Shown piece after piece: positions 18,313 to 42,288 of a stretch of DNA of 64,000 nt (the stretch's first letter is position 1; each line of letters begins with the position of its first letter). Source of the stretch: Pseudomonas baetica. GTDB taxonomy: Bacteria; Pseudomonadota; Gammaproteobacteria; Pseudomonadales; Pseudomonadaceae. Where the stretch lies: the NCBI RefSeq assembly GCF_002813455.1, contig NZ_PHHE01000001.1, forward strand, positions 6,603,001 to 6,667,000. Direction: 5' to 3'. Made by a program: the position numbers and the translations under genes. The notes below the pieces were generated by a model. The model made no database searches, was not told the DNA's origin, and worked only from the letters and a program-made list of their open reading frames with translations.

Positions 18313-18678
18313 CTACTCAGGCAAGCGCAGCTTATCCAGCAGTCGATTGGCCAACAGCTCGTTCAACATGATCACCTGTTGCAGCGCCAGCAACGGTTTG
18401 CGCTCCGGGCCGCCCACCGAGTTGGCGATATTGCCGGCCATGGCATGGGCGTATGAAAGCGATTCGCAGGCCTCGACCAGCAGGGTTTCGTCATCCAGCG
18501 TGGGGTCGACGAGGAACACTGGGCGAAACCTGGGCGAGCCTGGCGGGGCTCCCAGTGCTTCGGGTTTGAGGTAGTAGTCGAGGGCGCGGTCGGTGGCTTC
18601 TTTGACCTTTTGCGGGTCGAGCGCGGGGTCGTGGGGGATTGCATCGGTTTGTGGTGGGTTGGGTGTGATTTTGAACAT
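18313..18678 (-). CDS. DUF6124 family protein (copy A)
   Basis: 121 residues, function unknown. It starts MFKITPNPPQTD and has the family layout: a charged N-terminus, KEATDRALDYYLKP, and a helical C-terminal half (LLVEACESLSYAHAMAGNIA ... VIMLNELLANRLLDKL). The paralogue at 41412-41774 shares this pattern. No signal peptide or membrane segment is seen. Its 5' region holds the structured RNA at 18700-18990. Pseudomonas genomes often carry several such genes, but I know of no assigned function. Confidence 0.88.
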   Translation of the reverse strand: MFKITPNPPQTDAIPHDPALDPQKVKEATDRALDYYLKPEALGAPPGSPRFRPVFLVDPTLDDETLLVEACESLSYAHAMAGNIANSVGGPERKPLLALQQVIMLNELLANRLLDKLRLPE

Positions 18679-18699
18679 GATAAAGGTCCTACTTAATAA

Positions 18700-18990
18700 A
18701 TTAAGGAACCATCACTCTCGCTACCAAACGAGGGGTGGTGGCCATACGCGGGTTGGTAGACCGGTCTAAGTAGGAAACCCGGCGCTCACGAGTGAGCCCC
18801 ACGCATGGCCACCATAAAGGGTGGTGCCAAACGACTACTATAGAAGCGGGCTACCAAACCCGATCACTGTTATGCAGTGACAGGGAAACGATATAGCCCG
18901 CCCCATAGCCGTGTAAGCCGGCGGATTCTGGCGTACGCGTAGGTAACGGCGCAAGGCGTTGTAGGCTCTGTGGCGTAACGGGTTGTGTAA
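18700..18990 (-). ncRNA. Candidate structured RNA upstream of DUF6124 gene (copy A)
   Basis: The region is conserved with 41795-42110 ahead of the other DUF6124 gene. Stems by plus-strand coordinates: P1 18721-18727 with 18753-18759; P2 18736-18745 with 18805-18814 (10 bp); P3 18784-18788 with 18793-18797; a hairpin 18864-18869 with 18875-18880. A 21-base block (18915-18935) is identical in both copies. P1 and P2 interleave, so together they form a pseudoknot. P1, P2 and P3 all show paired changes between copies. It could be a cis-regulatory leader or an independent small RNA. A leader peptide is less likely because substitutions are not concentrated at third positions and copy B has no good start codon. 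Confidence 0.65.
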
Positions 18991-19076
18991 TTTAAACGTG
19001 CTTGCAGGACTGCGTTTACGGGCCGAGCATCGCGCAGTCCATCCGCTGTTTTGAGGTTGTCTGGCTTACCGCTTTC

Positions 19077-20208: not shown

Positions 20209-21711
20209 TTAAGAGGGCGTATCGTCTCCATCTTGTGGTGCTGCTGTTGAACTGTGGGTCTTTAAATTGGCGAGAAGTTCAGCGATGTCTACATCGGGAA
20301 GCAAGTCAGCTCCGATTAAGTATTCCTTGAGCTGGAGCGAGTTCGGCGTGCCATAAAGCATGTGCTTGATGTGCGTCGAGTCGAAGCCTGTCAGGCTGAG
20401 GATTCGCAGGAGGTAAAGGGTGGAAAGTGCATCAGTTTTTTTCAGCAATTCACTGATGAAATACTGATAATCCCCCGGCTTCCTTTCACCACCGTGATGA
20501 GACAGGTCATTTCGAAGGTCGGCGCAGGCGCGGGTAAATTTTTTGAGTTTTGTGTCATCAAGCCCGATAGCCACGGGCTTTAACAGGTTGTAGAGCCTGT
20601 CTGCCAGTGGCCGTTCCACGCTACGCTGCTCTAATAGCCCCGTTAACCATTTACGATCACTACGGTTGAGTTGTTCGCCGTTTTCTGCAACGAACTTCTT
20701 CAGTCGCTGAATTTTTTCCGTAAGTTTAGGGTCGTCACAGCTTGACGCGTTGACGCGGCGATCCAGCGCTTCCAGCCCCCACACAAGATTGACAAAGCGA
20801 TGCTCTACATAAAGGGGCTTGTTGCGGCGGGTTCCCAGATAAAGGCTGATGCCCGGGCCTAAACGTTTTCGTTGGTCTATCCAGTTTTCCAGCAGGGTTG
20901 CAAACGTCTCGCGGATCATAATGAACGGCAGTAGCATTTCATGCCATTTTACCGGGCTGTCGGCCGGTGCGTTGCGGCGAAAATAAAAGACGGCCGTAGT
21001 GAGTTCTCCATGTTCTTCCCAGAATAATTTCGGCCACCTGAGCGTTAAATTTGAATTCGTAAGAATCAGCAATAAATCCTGGACGGCACGGTACCAGTCC
21101 AGTGCATCCTCGCTTGTCATCGCTGTTGTTGGCGTGAACGCCAGTCTTGAAGACATGCCGGCATTGATTGAATGGGCCCACATGTCGGGTTCGTAACCGG
21201 TGAAGTCATGAATAACTTCAAGCGTTCCCGATGAGGTGATCAACGACTCATCCGGATTTAGCGCCAGCCTGGCTTCGATTGCCTCGCCACCACCATCACT
21301 ACTCTTTGATCGATCAAAGGTGATTTTCCCGGGGCGTATCCACTGCTGTAGATCATCCAGGGACACACTGATCTTATCGATGCTTTTAAAGGTGGGTGGC
21401 CTTTGGGAGATAAAACATTCACGGGCTATAAACGTTTCATGTGAATTGTGCCCCGTGTGCCCACCGACGGCAGCCAGCCCCTTGAGCAATACATATTGGC
21501 CGCTGGCTTTCAAACAACCCAACAGGGAAATGGACTCCGCAAGGTTTTCACCAAAAACTCCGCCGAGTCCGCTTCGCCCTGGCAACGTCTCGTGCAGTTC
21601 AAGTTTGATCAGTCCGCTTGAGTCTATCGTTAATAAGCCGGCCGTCCTCTGCGTCTCAGAATCTTCATTTGCCCACCAGAAGAACCCCTGGTCTTGAATT
21701 TCCATGTGCAT
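20209..21711 (-). CDS. ApeA-like HEPN antiphage protein
   Basis: 500 residues. The N-terminus (DQGFFWWANE...TAGLLTIDSSGLIKLELHETL) fits the ApeA N-terminal domain. The C-terminal third holds a HEPN RNase motif (R-N-D-L-S-H, Rx4H) near residue 400 in ACADLRNDLSHHGG. ApeA is a single-gene defence protein that acts by abortive infection, and HEPN domains of this type cleave RNA. The ATG at 21711 (MHMEIQDQG) has ACGGAAAAG upstream; the frame stays open to 21786. No partner gene is adjacent. The domain call is from family memory. Confidence 0.82.
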   Translation of the reverse strand: MHMEIQDQGFFWWANEDSETQRTAGLLTIDSSGLIKLELHETLPGRSGLGGVFGENLAESISLLGCLKASGQYVLLKGLAAVGGHTGHNSHETFIARECFISQRPPTFKSIDKISVSLDDLQQWIRPGKITFDRSKSSDGGGEAIEARLALNPDESLITSSGTLEVIHDFTGYEPDMWAHSINAGMSSRLAFTPTTAMTSEDALDWYRAVQDLLLILTNSNLTLRWPKLFWEEHGELTTAVFYFRRNAPADSPVKWHEMLLPFIMIRETFATLLENWIDQRKRLGPGISLYLGTRRNKPLYVEHRFVNLVWGLEALDRRVNASSCDDPKLTEKIQRLKKFVAENGEQLNRSDRKWLTGLLEQRSVERPLADRLYNLLKPVAIGLDDTKLKKFTRACADLRNDLSHHGGERKPGDYQYFISELLKKTDALSTLYLLRILSLTGFDSTHIKHMLYGTPNSLQLKEYLIGADLLPDVDIAELLANLKTHSSTAAPQDGDDTPS

Positions 21712-22203
21712 ATACTTTTCCGTAACTGGACCGAAATGGGTACGCCAAGTGCTCTCGTCGGCTGGGTAAGAGGCCGCGCGCTGCAACGCAGAGAATGATT
21801 GCTTCAGGTGCTCTGCGCCACCGTTGCAGGGCGTACACGTTACCAGCGATTGTTCTTGCGAGTTACACCGACCTGAAACATCGAGTCGAACTCAGTTTTG
21901 AACGCACTAAAGCTCGGCTCCTTTTACCGTCGCCCCCTCTGGGGCCTGTTGGATGTTTCGGGAGGGCTGGGGTGAGGGGGCAGCCATCTACCTGACACTC
22001 CACGCACCTGCCAAACACCCTCAACCCAAAAAGCATCCGGCCTAAGCTAATGCAAAAAAGGTATTTGTTAGCCGTTTTATATATCGATTAGTTTTGATTC
22101 ACCAACGAATCAAAGCATCAAACCGATAGACCTCCGATTGCCATGACGGCACACGCTGAATCGATCAAAGGCTCTTCAGGTTTGGTTCACACGGGAGTGA
22201 ATC
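21712..22203. other. Intergenic stretch between apeA-like gene and oxygenase operon
   Basis: No convincing gene. It has a GC-rich low-complexity part (21920-21985) and an unusually AT-rich part (22050-22115) that should contain the promoter of the downstream operon. Confidence 0.6.
22093..22114 (+). promoter_or_regulatory. Inverted repeat, candidate operator of the 22204 operon
   Basis: TTTGATTC (22093-22100) and GAATCAAA (22107-22114) form a perfect 8-bp inverted repeat with a 6-base spacer in AT-rich sequence, 90 bases before the oxygenase start. The size suits a dimeric regulator. The regulator is unknown. Confidence 0.5.
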
Positions 22204-36396: not shown

Positions 36397-36527
36397 GGGG
36401 GGAGATTAGCAGGGAATGAGGGGCTGCTTTCGGCCGATTCTGTTGAAAAAGTCCACCTTGGTTTCCATGGCAGAAAAGTACGCGTCTGAGATTGAAATCC
36501 TCACTTTTGGCTGAGGCTTCCGGGCTC

Positions 36528-39714: not shown

Positions 39715-41331
39715 GGCCGATTCTGTTGAAAAAGTCGGATTTTCAAATGGCCTGAACTCAGGCACGACCACCACCGGAGAACCTACTCACCACATTGAGT
39801 GGTTTTTCGGCCCTTCGGTGACCTTTGCTGCTCTGTTATTGGGTTAATTTGAGGTTTTTTGCTTGGTGCAGGCGCACCTATCCCGTGACTGGTGGCCCTT
39901 GAGATGAAAATTTGGCCAGCCGTCGCAGGTTCTGCACCGCAGCGGCCAGCGTGAATTCATCCGTCGCGCCACTCATGCCACGTAGCCGCAGGCGATCCAA
40001 TTTCAGGATGCGCTTGAGGTGGGCAAACAACATTTCGACCTTTTTACGTTCGTGGCGAGAGCGCTGATATGCCGGCGTTGCTGCAATGCGCCGAGCCACA
40101 TCGCGAGCGGCTTCATGGACGCTGCGAGCGATCTTGCGGAACGCAGTGTTCGGGCAGCACTTGGCTTTCATCGGACACGTAGCGCAATCGGTCTGCCGGG
40201 ATCGGAAGATGATGGTGTTGGCTTTGGTGACGTGTGAACGCTCGTTTTTGAAGGCTCGCCATTCGCTGCGCAATGGGTTGCCGGCTGGGCAGCGGTATTC
40301 CTCGGCCTCTTCATTCCAGTGGAAATCGTTACTCGAAAAGCTGTCGTTCTTGCGCTCAGTTTTGTCCCACACCGGCACATGCGGCTCGATGTCTTTTTCC
40401 TCCACCATCCAGGCCAGCATCGGCGCGGTACCGTAAGCGGTGTCGCCAATGAGGCGTTCCGGCTTGATGTCGAACAGCGCTTCGACCCGTTCGATCATCG
40501 TCTTGGTGCTCTCGACTTCTGCGGTTCGATGAGCCGGTGTGGGTTCCACATCCATGATCACGCCGTGCTCGGTATCGATCAGATAATTCGTGGAGTAAGC
40601 GTAGAAAGCTGGGCCGCCTGGAGCAGCGGTCCAACGGGCCTGAGGATCCGTCAGCGACAGGCGCTTCGGTAGCGTTTCGGCCAGAGCCTCTTCATCGAGC
40701 GCCTCAAGATACTCACGCACGGCGCGAGTGGTCAGGGATGGATCGCTCCAGTTGACCTGTTCATCTCCCGGTACGCCGCGCTGCCGACTCGCATCCGCCT
40801 TGATGATGCTGGCGTCCACGGCAAAGCCTTCACCTTTGACCAAGCCTGCGTCCATGCAACGACGCAGCACTTCATTGAACAACCAGCGAAACAGATCACT
40901 GTCCCGAAAACGGCCGTGTCGATTTTTGGAAAAGGTCGAGTGGTTGGGCACTTCATCTTCAAGGCTCAACCGGCAGAACCAGCGATACGCCAGGTTCAAA
41001 TGGGCCTCTTCGCACAACCGTCGTTCGGAGCGGATGCCATAGCAGTAGCCGACGATCAGCATGCGGATCATCAGTTCAGGATCAATCGACGGACGTCCAA
41101 TCGGGCTATAGAAATCGGCGAGGTAATGGCGCAGGTCACTCAGATCGAGACACTGATCAATGCTGCGCAGAAGATGATTGGCTGGGATGTGATCTTCAAG
41201 GTTGAACGAGTAAAACAGCCGCTCCTGCCCACTCGATAACTGTCCCATCATGCTCTGTGATCCCCCGCCGGCCAATGAAGCAATTTTGCCGCAGGTCAGA
41301 CAGGGGAGCTACTTTTTCAACAGAATCGGCC
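39715..41331 (-). mobile_element. IS1182-family insertion sequence (about 1617 bp)
   Basis: Bounded by GGCCGATTCTGTTGAAAAAG at 39715 and its exact reverse complement ending at 41331. Similarity of the ends may extend another 6-10 bases outward (GCTATT and GCTTTC), so the true tips could be slightly wider. No clear target duplication was found. Confidence 0.85.
39878..41251 (-). CDS. IS1182-family transposase
   Basis: About 457 residues: N-terminal DUF772-type domain (HLLRSIDQCLDLSDL, GRPSIDPELMIRMLIVGYCYGIRSERRLCEE), DDE core (GFAVDASIIKADAS, RLIGDTAYGT) and C-terminal zinc-like Cys cluster (CATCPMKAKCCP) followed by ERKKVEMLFAHLKRILKLDRLRLRG. The frame is complete. Starts at 41275, 41251 and 41248 are possible; 41251 has GGGGATCACAG upstream. 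Confidence 0.92.
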   Translation of the reverse strand: MMGQLSSGQERLFYSFNLEDHIPANHLLRSIDQCLDLSDLRHYLADFYSPIGRPSIDPELMIRMLIVGYCYGIRSERRLCEEAHLNLAYRWFCRLSLEDEVPNHSTFSKNRHGRFRDSDLFRWLFNEVLRRCMDAGLVKGEGFAVDASIIKADASRQRGVPGDEQVNWSDPSLTTRAVREYLEALDEEALAETLPKRLSLTDPQARWTAAPGGPAFYAYSTNYLIDTEHGVIMDVEPTPAHRTAEVESTKTMIERVEALFDIKPERLIGDTAYGTAPMLAWMVEEKDIEPHVPVWDKTERKNDSFSSNDFHWNEEAEEYRCPAGNPLRSEWRAFKNERSHVTKANTIIFRSRQTDCATCPMKAKCCPNTAFRKIARSVHEAARDVARRIAATPAYQRSRHERKKVEMLFAHLKRILKLDRLRLRGMSGATDEFTLAAAVQNLRRLAKFSSQGPPVTG

Positions 41332-41411: not shown

Positions 41412-41774
41412 CTACTGGACTACATCAACCCTATCCAAAGCCCGATTCACCGCCAATTCCCCAAGCATCACCACCTGCGCAATGCCCAGCAAAGTCTTGC
41501 GAATCGACCCATCTACATGCCCGGCAACATCCCCGAGCATGACACTCGCCGAGGACAGTGATTCGCAGGCATTCGCCAGCAACGACTCGACGTCTGTCTC
41601 TGGATTAACCGAAAACATCGTGCTGGGTTTATACGGCGCAGCACTGATCGCTGCCGCAGGTTTGAGGTAATGGTCGAGCGCGCGTTCTGCCGCGTCGTGG
41701 AATTTCCTGGAATCGGCTGATTCGTACGGGGAGGCCGGGTCGGTTTCCGGCGGGTTTGGCGTTATTTTGCACAT
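41412..41774 (-). CDS. DUF6124 family protein (copy B)
   Basis: 120 residues, function unknown, paralogous to the gene at 18313: same start pattern (MCKITPNPPETD), AAERALDHYLKP and C-terminal helices (LLANACESLSSASVMLGDVAGHV ... VVMLGELAVNRALDRV). AGGAAAAAGAAGAA precedes the ATG. The structured RNA copy B lies directly upstream. The terminator sits next to the IS1182 element, so the gene just escaped disruption. Confidence 0.86.
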   Translation of the reverse strand: MCKITPNPPETDPASPYESADSRKFHDAAERALDHYLKPAAAISAAPYKPSTMFSVNPETDVESLLANACESLSSASVMLGDVAGHVDGSIRKTLLGIAQVVMLGELAVNRALDRVDVVQ

Positions 41775-41794
41775 TTCTTCTTTTTCCTGTTGTG

Positions 41795-42110
41795 TGGCCG
41801 CCGCTCCGAGCTACTAAACAGGGGGTGGCAGCTGTACGCAGGTTAGTAGACCGGGGAAAAGAAGAAAGCCGGCGCGCCCGAGGGCGCCCTACGCACAGCC
41901 GCCATCAATTGCAGGTATGCAAATACCTGACTGAGGGGAGCTTGTGCACTTTCATTTACCACGGGCTACTAAACCCGATCACTGGGAATCAGTGACAGGA
42001 ATCAAGTTACCGATGGCCCTCCAGGCGCACAAGCCGGCGGATTCTGGCGTAGTCGTAGGCAACGACGCAAGGTGTTGTAGCCTCGATGGCGTAACGCGAG
42101 GTGTCTTTTA
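41795..42110 (-). ncRNA. Candidate structured RNA upstream of DUF6124 gene (copy B)
   Basis: Same architecture as 18700-18990. P1: 41811-41817 with 41843-41849. P2: 41826-41835 with 41895-41904, one A-C mismatch. P3: 41874-41878 with 41883-41887. Hairpin: 41979-41984 with 41990-41995. The identical 21-base block is at 42031-42051. Compared with copy A, P1 changes one C-G to T-A, P2 changes three pairs and P3 two, each with the partner also changed. The P1/P2 pseudoknot is preserved. The spacer between P2 and the hairpin differs in sequence and length. Confidence 0.65.
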
Positions 42111-42288
42111 AACGCCAGGGCAAATGCTGTTAAACATACCGGCCGAAACGTTGATGACATCCGAGAAACTACGCCCGATAACCGCGCTAAATCCGCATTC
42201 CCCAAAGGAATGCCCCACATAAAATCTATGCATTTTTCTTATCCAGCTCCCCGGCGTACCTTGCTGCAAAGACAAGGAGAATCGCCCA

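Follow-up and report, generated by a model that had tools for sequence, protein, structure and literature searches.

What is the RNA that precedes the DUF6124 genes of Pseudomonas baetica, and what does it do to them? The question arises from positions 18700-18990 of a 64,000-nt stretch of this genome (the window), which a sequence-only reading had singled out as a pseudoknotted, covarying RNA shared by two unlinked DUF6124 genes. The region is the leader of a minus-strand DUF6124 gene (18313-18678); the locus as a whole, copy A, spans 18313-18935, and copy B occupies 41412-42051 on the same strand.

The leader RNA is a C4 antisense RNA

The RNA upstream of both window DUF6124 genes is the Rfam C4 antisense RNA (RF01695). 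The model covers both elements full length (model positions 1-87 of 87), scoring 79.7 bits at 18731-18819 in copy A and 78.7 bits at 41821-41909 in copy B, with a cut-off of 45. The suggestion of an undescribed regulatory RNA did not survive this search, which returned RF01695 and, upstream of it, a near-cut-off match to c4-a1b1 (RF03163). Two points go beyond the sequence-only reading: the RNA lies on the minus strand, the same as the gene, and an extra loop at 18765-18778 is complementary to the ribosome-binding region.

The helices proposed in that reading, and the base changes by which copies A and B were said to differ, were correct when the two copies were compared by eye. P1 (18721-18727/18753-18759, ctaccaa/ttggtag) carries one double change (CUACC/GGUAG vs CUACU/AGUAG in copy B), P2 carries three, within 10 of the 17 bp of the stem 18736-18752/18798-18814, and the nested hairpin P3 (18784-18797) carries two. 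P2 is the outer part of the 17-bp C4 stem, and P3 is the first C4 hairpin. P1, the helix that interleaves with P2, does pair and covary, but it is not part of the C4 fold. This "pseudoknot" is best read as an antisense-target duplex, in which a C4 segment, b', faces a target, b2, behind the RNA. Covariation data alone do not separate a P1 duplex formed within one RNA from one formed between two.

The genome contains 36 C4 RNAs, all scoring above the RF01695 cut-off. An alignment of these 36 same-genome copies showed strong covariation, beyond what chance would give. Bases paired in 93.3% of cells (82.9% in shuffles), 22 pairs were changed on both sides (13.1 in shuffles), and the covariation score was 0.439 (0.233 in shuffles), a value reached by 0 of 500 shuffles; slid controls scored at most 0.099. 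All 7 pairs of b':b2, the P1 of the sequence-only reading, showed changes on both sides in the 36-row alignment. MAFFT displaced b' or b2 in some alignment rows, which should lower, not raise, the covariation counts.

C4 loops match the start of the gene behind

In copy A, the antisense loop a' (GUUUCCUACUUAGA, 18765-18778) can pair with the ribosome-binding region of the gene behind it. The complementary stretches are UCCUACUUA in the loop and UAAGUAGGA in the target a2 (UUAAGUAGGACCUU, 18683-18696), which lies over the likely ribosome-binding site. The duplex spans positions -18 to -5 relative to the start codon, with an energy of -14.2 kcal/mol that is the best of 36 in both directions. Segment b' (CUACCAA, 18753-18759) forms 7/7 pairs with b2 (UUGGUAG, 18721-18727), its partner half in P1, and also with an upstream copy, b1 (TTGGTAG, 18851-18857). 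In copy B, b' (CUACUAA, 41843-41849) likewise forms 7/7 pairs with b2 (UUAGUAG, 41811-41817) and with b1. Here the loop a' UUUCUUCUUUU pairs with the start region AAAAGAAGAAA within a2 (41770-41788, ..AAAAAGAAGAAAUG..), reaching into the start codon, which a2 overlaps (-14.3 kcal/mol, again best of 36 in both directions). The a' loops of the two copies are widely different, and each fits its own target.

Duplex energies were calculated for every a' loop against every start region of the 36 loci, the start codons of L025 and L032 being set by hand at the first ATG after a ribosome-binding site. Paired with their own start regions, the a' loops summed to -525.4 kcal/mol, compared with -326.7 kcal/mol (sd 13.7) for permuted partners, and none of 20,000 permutations reached the own-partner sum. 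No two of the 36 loci have the same a' loop, and b' occurs in 22 different sequences. In 29 of the 36 loci the 26 nt that follow a C4 contain a 7/7 partner for its b' segment, and in 31 loci the 110 nt upstream of the C4 contain one. Among the 1,214 mismatched combinations, that is, locus pairs with different b', the corresponding figures are 103 (8.5%) and 94 (7.7%).

A start-agnostic replication covered all C4 RNAs above cut-off in four genomes (36, 38, 35 and 30 of them; one sub-cut-off match in genome G010 was left out). The three added genomes were picked for many C4 RNAs and differing DUF6124 counts. In the same genome order, a' matched its downstream target with z = -14.4, -11.0, -14.2 and -9.6, b' matched b2 with z = -10.9, -7.4, -8.4 and -7.4, and b' matched the upstream side with z = -10.3, -8.7, -11.0 and -8.8. 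The match of a' to the upstream side was weaker (z = -5.6, -7.3, -5.8 and -5.1). In each of these 16 tests (four pairings in four genomes), 0 of 10,000 permutations reached the observed value. For 34 of the 36 window-genome loci, the best a' site lay over positions -13 to -5 relative to the start codon. Together, covariation and loop-target matching lend strong support to the earlier suggestion that selection acts on RNA structure tied to genes of unknown function.

The match between a C4 and its own gene is not exclusive. The own target was the best of 36 for only 21 C4s, the own C4 was the best partner for only 16 of the 36 targets, and at least one rival C4 fitted about equally well in 16 of 36 loci by a loose criterion. 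The weakest own pairings, at L045, L049 and L026, ranked 21st, 16th and 14th of 36. Insulation between paralogs is therefore incomplete, though strong on average. The set can be seen as a family of putative silencers, each with its own address, in which the addresses have diverged only in part. At three loci (L028, L046 and L048), which have a nearly identical promoter stretch, pairwise identity is 95-98% in the coding sequences and only 21-38% in the a' loops; the loops still pair with their own targets, at -11.4, -13.7 and -12.0 kcal/mol (3rd, 2nd and 3rd of 36). Either rapid joint change of loop and target after duplication, or gene conversion homogenising the coding sequences under differing leaders, may account for this pattern.

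Genes predicted to be controlled by the C4 set

A DUF6124 match lies within 500 bases downstream of the C4, on the same strand, in 27 of the 36 loci, and a DUF3077 match does so in 5. Of the remaining four C4s, three precede small proteins (L037, L049 and L056) and one precedes a Bro-N antirepressor-like gene. A Pfam scan of the L037 and L049 proteins gave no match at E <= 1, and L056 was grouped with them by eye. Seen from the genes, the element stands ahead of most DUF6124 genes, as the sequence-only reading would require: 27 of the 33 matches have a same-strand C4 within 500 bases upstream, and two of the six that do not sit directly behind a C4-headed DUF6124 gene. Five of the six DUF3077 matches have a C4 directly ahead. 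The two families are related in profile comparison, where DUF6124 matched a DUF3077-like set (probability 91, E 1e-6). One gene matches both DUF6124 and DUF3077 and has no C4 (L058, G000:C1:1243235); a PrrF RNA (158.4 bits) was found in the same fetched stretch.

Bro-N antirepressor-like genes follow one C4 in the window genome (L041, G000:C1:4329672) and five in genome G018 (L069, L072, L081, L123 and L127). L041 and L072 were assigned by Pfam and the other four by sequence likeness. The L041 protein begins MIEVTPNAP, resembling the MxKxTPNPP of DUF6124, as if the N-terminus had moved with the leader.

In the three other genomes, 14 of 103 C4s had no ORF of at least 55 aa behind them by the rule used, which visibly chose the wrong ORF in some loci (e.g. 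L061, L068, L100 and L146). Shorter relatives of 70-80 aa occur behind C4s in G009 (L067, L070 and L074) and G018 (L084 and L116), and many of these begin MKK.VPDPP or MKKLTP. L084 is a DUF6124 match (45.7 bits), and the Pfam scan of L067 gave no match above cut-off. The Pfam models probably do not cover the whole family under predicted C4 control. G009 also carries C4s in tandem (L155, L157 and L163 at C21:16214-16512; L090, L143 and L153 at C17:111255-112197). Several of these resemble orphans, with no evident target gene behind, and may be decoys, spares or products of decay.

The genes directly beside the two window copies encode a GFO/IDH/MocA oxidoreductase, a putative 2OG-Fe(II) oxygenase, a methyltransferase and a DDE transposase; phage structural genes were absent among these direct neighbours. 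The transposase gene (39878-41275, minus strand) lies immediately downstream of the copy B DUF6124 gene, and repeats of 35-36 bases at 36419, 37955, 39702 and 41302 suggest the termini of a pair of related IS elements. Some 1.3 kb upstream of leader A, a gene (20209-21786, minus strand) encodes an ApeA-type protein (ApeA_NTD1 and HEPN_Apea), which by its name we take to be an anti-phage defence candidate. A site fixed across the genus was ruled out by the flanks in other genomes: the flanking oxidoreductase gene occurs without an adjoining C4-DUF6124 cassette in G011, G005, G002 and G010, and in G016 a cassette lies beside the 2OG-oxygenase gene in the opposite orientation. The site is lineage-specific. 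Elsewhere in the window genome, a fragment at G000:C1:6229071-6229367 is 94% identical to the 3' part of the copy A gene region; it matches DUF6124, and C4 was not found in the fetched stretch (L059).

Promoter-like and target elements upstream of C4

The order of elements at these loci is a promoter-like element, an a1/b1 target, C4, a b2/a2 target and the gene. In copy A, a predicted sigma70-type promoter (TTACAC - 17 - TATCGT, 18888-18916, minus strand) was found by pattern match ahead of an RF03163-like a1/b1 element at 18843-18894 (45.6 bits, E 2e-10). In copy B, the predicted promoter (TTGTGC - 17 - TAACTT) lies at 42004-42032 and the a1/b1 element at 41958-42009 (26.9 bits, E 0.009). 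Both a1/b1 scores are under the RF03163 cut-off of 46.7, that of copy B well under it. Genome-wide, c4-a1b1 matches were found upstream of the C4 in 30 of 36 loci at E <= 0.01, 10 of them at or above the curated cut-off. A match to isrK (RF01394) on the upstream region (26.7 bits, cut-off 50) was taken as a likeness of the a1/b1 hairpins.

In 32 of the 36 loci a loose pattern finds a sigma70-like -35/-10 pair immediately ahead of a1/b1; 200 base shuffles gave a mean of 6.8 loci and at most 15, and the same pattern farther upstream gave 1 of 36. A strict pattern is matched in 22 loci. The 21-base block that the sequence-only reading had found identical in the two copies was located at 18915-18935, where it abuts the -35 of the predicted promoter, and at 42031-42051. 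Its core, CAGAATCCGCCGGCTT, has 18 exact sites in the 6.9-Mb genome, all of them 96-141 bases upstream of a same-strand C4, and a nineteenth site upstream of a C4 has one mismatch. With up to two mismatches, CAGAATCCGCCGGCTT gave 27 matches, against 2 for the backward control. The block is likely to be a shared operator or promoter part, as judged from its sequence and placement. It is common to about half of the 36 loci, which makes these a candidate regulon: the loci that share it may be regulated together.

The conserved stretch around the block (18900-18998 and 42016-42114) can be read as a similar peptide in both copies. An in-frame TAA at L029, L033, L035 and L052, together with the base-level identity of the block, argues against a small upstream ORF and for a promoter or operator element.

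The DUF6124 protein

The window genes encode proteins of 121 aa (copy A, 18313-18678) and 120 aa (copy B, 41412-41774), which match PF19619 with 62.9 and 76.8 bits, both above its gathering score of 27. DUF6124 proteins are under purifying selection, with dN/dS values of 0.08-0.16 in five equal-length paralog pairs (of seven tried) and of 0.15 between copy A and its paralog L050. An AlphaFold model (mean pLDDT 76.4, pTM 0.48) shows a confident two-helix hairpin at residues 62-115 behind a weak N-terminal part. A Foldseek search of this model against the PDB returned nothing at E <= 0.001, and ferritin-like rows were read as generic helices. The window proteins gave no NCBIfam and no PADLOC match, and in PHROGs only phrog_6327 was matched, by copy B (E 0.018).

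Distribution of C4 and DUF6124

Of the 99 genus genomes sampled, the window genome among them, 92 have C4 matches and 91 have matches above the cut-off. The median was 13 copies, and 21 of the 99 genomes had at least 30. Outside the genus, C4 matches were present in 17 of the 273 genomes sampled from the class, at 1-6 copies each in a search that scored up to 15 candidates per genome. DUF6124 occurred in 78 of the 99 genus genomes and in none of the 273 others, and DUF3077 in 76 of the 99. Across the 99 genomes, the number of C4s followed the summed number of DUF6124 and DUF3077 matches (Spearman 0.94, where a C4 count of 39 stands for at least 39 and a gene matching both families is counted twice).

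The seven genus genomes that lack C4 have neither DUF6124 nor DUF3077. Conversely, 13 of the 20 genomes without DUF6124 and DUF3077 keep 1-4 C4s (e.g. G001, G008 and G012), so C4 is not bound to these genes alone. In those 13 genomes it must head other genes, perhaps prophage antirepressors. In nine C4 loci from other genera, all nine a' loops had a leader site of -12 kcal/mol or lower behind them, a count made without a permutation control. Two of the nine proteins behind these C4s (L197 and L200) resemble phage antirepressors when their motifs are read by eye. We would expect C4 ahead of an antirepressor to be the ancestral setting.

Searched with copy B, 50,697 phage records yielded a single DUF6124 match and 72,556 plasmid records yielded none. 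The idea that DUF6124 belongs to phages or plasmids was rejected; the sole phage match lies at the end of its record (61-405), probably in a host flank.

Discussion

We have good confidence in the prediction that each C4, with loops complementary to the start of the DUF6124 gene behind it, silences that gene. A single leader transcript from the upstream promoter would carry a1/b1, C4, b2/a2 and the gene. C4 would be excised from this leader, as by RNase P in the phages P1 and P7. With its two loops, the released C4 would attach to the target next to and over the ribosome-binding site, either in the same transcript or in a sister one. Pairing with b2 and a2 would close the ribosome-binding site and block translation, and early termination of the mRNA would probably follow.

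A device acting purely in cis would require no released RNA. The C4 fold would form a pseudoknot with b2/a2 while its own leader is being transcribed, acting as a translation or termination switch set by a ligand, a protein or the passage of the ribosome. The antisense and its target do lie on one predicted transcript, with b2 starting 2-8 nt and the start codons used lying 41-56 nt behind C4, and covariation is blind to the difference between a cis and a trans duplex. We nevertheless consider such a device unlikely, since C4 of P1/P7 works as a processed RNA and the read coverage of C4-like RNAs in Acinetobacter baumannii climbs at the processing motif (PMC5320573), and since two target sets (a1/b1 and a2/b2) for each C4 would suit a released RNA better.

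The main task of the C4s could instead be defence against incoming phages or elements whose antirepressors are under C4 control, with DUF6124 as a passenger. This would accord with the part that C4 plays in P1/P7 immunity (PMC5320573), with the Bro-N antirepressor-like genes behind one C4 here and five in G018, and with the two of nine C4s in other genera that by eye head antirepressor-like proteins. We regard this as improbable: the loops fit DUF6124 starts within the same genome, dN/dS values of 0.08-0.16 show purifying selection on the family, and DUF6124 was met in only 1 of 50,697 phage and 0 of 72,556 plasmid records. That the C4s are functionless relics of decayed prophages is more improbable still. 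Phages are the best-known source of C4, and some copies are orphan-like, but both-side changes in 7/7 b':b2 pairs and the low dN/dS contradict decay, and the presence of C4 in 92 of 99 sampled genus genomes and the lack of phage structural genes directly beside both window copies (the two of the 36 whose neighbours were scanned) also speak against it. An undescribed class of pseudoknotted RNA, to which the covarying interleaved helices could have pointed, is refuted as to class by the end-to-end match to RF01695, about 35 bits over the cut-off.

The predicted silencing of each gene by the C4 ahead of it can be set against several known systems. A 2010 study lists C4 and its a1/b1 element (PMC2864571), and a 2016 study credits it with predicting C4 in Pseudomonadales, among others (PMC5320573). 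In P1/P7, RNase P cuts C4 from a longer transcript to about 77 nt (PMC5320573). The Pseudomonas RNAs resemble C4 of P1/P7 (RF01695, RF03163) in their fold, in the loops a' and b', in the a1/b1-like element upstream and in the ribosome-binding-site target (PMC5320573). They differ from it in being chromosomal, with 36 copies in one genome and differing loops, and in that the controlled gene is mostly DUF6124 or DUF3077. The gene controlled by C4 in P1 and P7 is ant. Immunity of the P1/P7 c4 kind is defined by control of an antirepressor in a phage or prophage, and the window loci, which have DUF6124 genes instead and direct neighbours other than phage structural genes, were not classed with it.

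In A. baumannii, C4-like RNAs occur in multiple copies and are reported to be strongly expressed, apparently with processing at a GGW site (PMC5320573). Those of Group 1 are like the present set in occurring many times in one genome with variable a' loops (PMC5320573). Their targets are left open in the available text of that study (PMC5320573), whereas in Pseudomonas we propose the next gene's own start, and the loop-target pairs co-vary. Expression and processing are reported for the A. baumannii copies (PMC5320573) and predicted for those of Pseudomonas. R178, an intergenic repeat of P. fluorescens described in 2009, is 101 bp long with an internal 11-bp inverted repeat, and is present in 18, 28 and 9 copies in strains SBW25, Pf0-1 and Pf-5 (PMC2718517). 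It might be the same element as these C4 loci, and the available part of that account links R178 neither to C4 nor to a target gene (PMC2718517).

Full-text searches of the open-licence literature gave, among the papers listed, no account of C4 with DUF6124 or DUF3077, nor of matched Pseudomonas targets, and the available passages on DUF3077 make no link to C4. The RNA is a member of RF01695 that differs in its setting, its copy number and the gene it is predicted to control.

Two other systems offer partial parallels. The CI RNA of satellite phage P4 is a processed antisense RNA that pairs with sites in its own leader, as proposed here for C4; it differs in being a single copy that serves prophage immunity. 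Multi-copy type I toxin-antitoxin families likewise couple every member of a set of small paralogous genes to a dedicated RNA repressor. In contrast to these, C4 lies on the same strand as the gene and ahead of it, and the window proteins have no PADLOC match. We know of no toxicity of DUF6124.

Taken further, and more tentatively, the set could be a chromosomal array of dozens of individually addressed antisense silencers in Pseudomonas. Loops and targets would have been rewritten jointly after each duplication of a C4-DUF6124 cassette, like the heteroimmune split of P1 and P7, leaving paralogs that are silent and singly releasable. DUF6124 would then be a domesticated effector family of phage-regulator type, dosed gene by gene. 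We hold this larger picture to be possible, with the odds somewhat against it.

The predicted silencing of each gene by the C4 ahead gives chromosomal C4-like RNAs a testable target, a matter left open for A. baumannii in the available text (PMC5320573). With at least 30 natural antisense-target pairs per genome, replicated within the genus, they offer a view of how RNA specificity splits after duplication. DUF6124, a large family of no known function with 33 matches in this genome, gains a concrete regulatory hypothesis.
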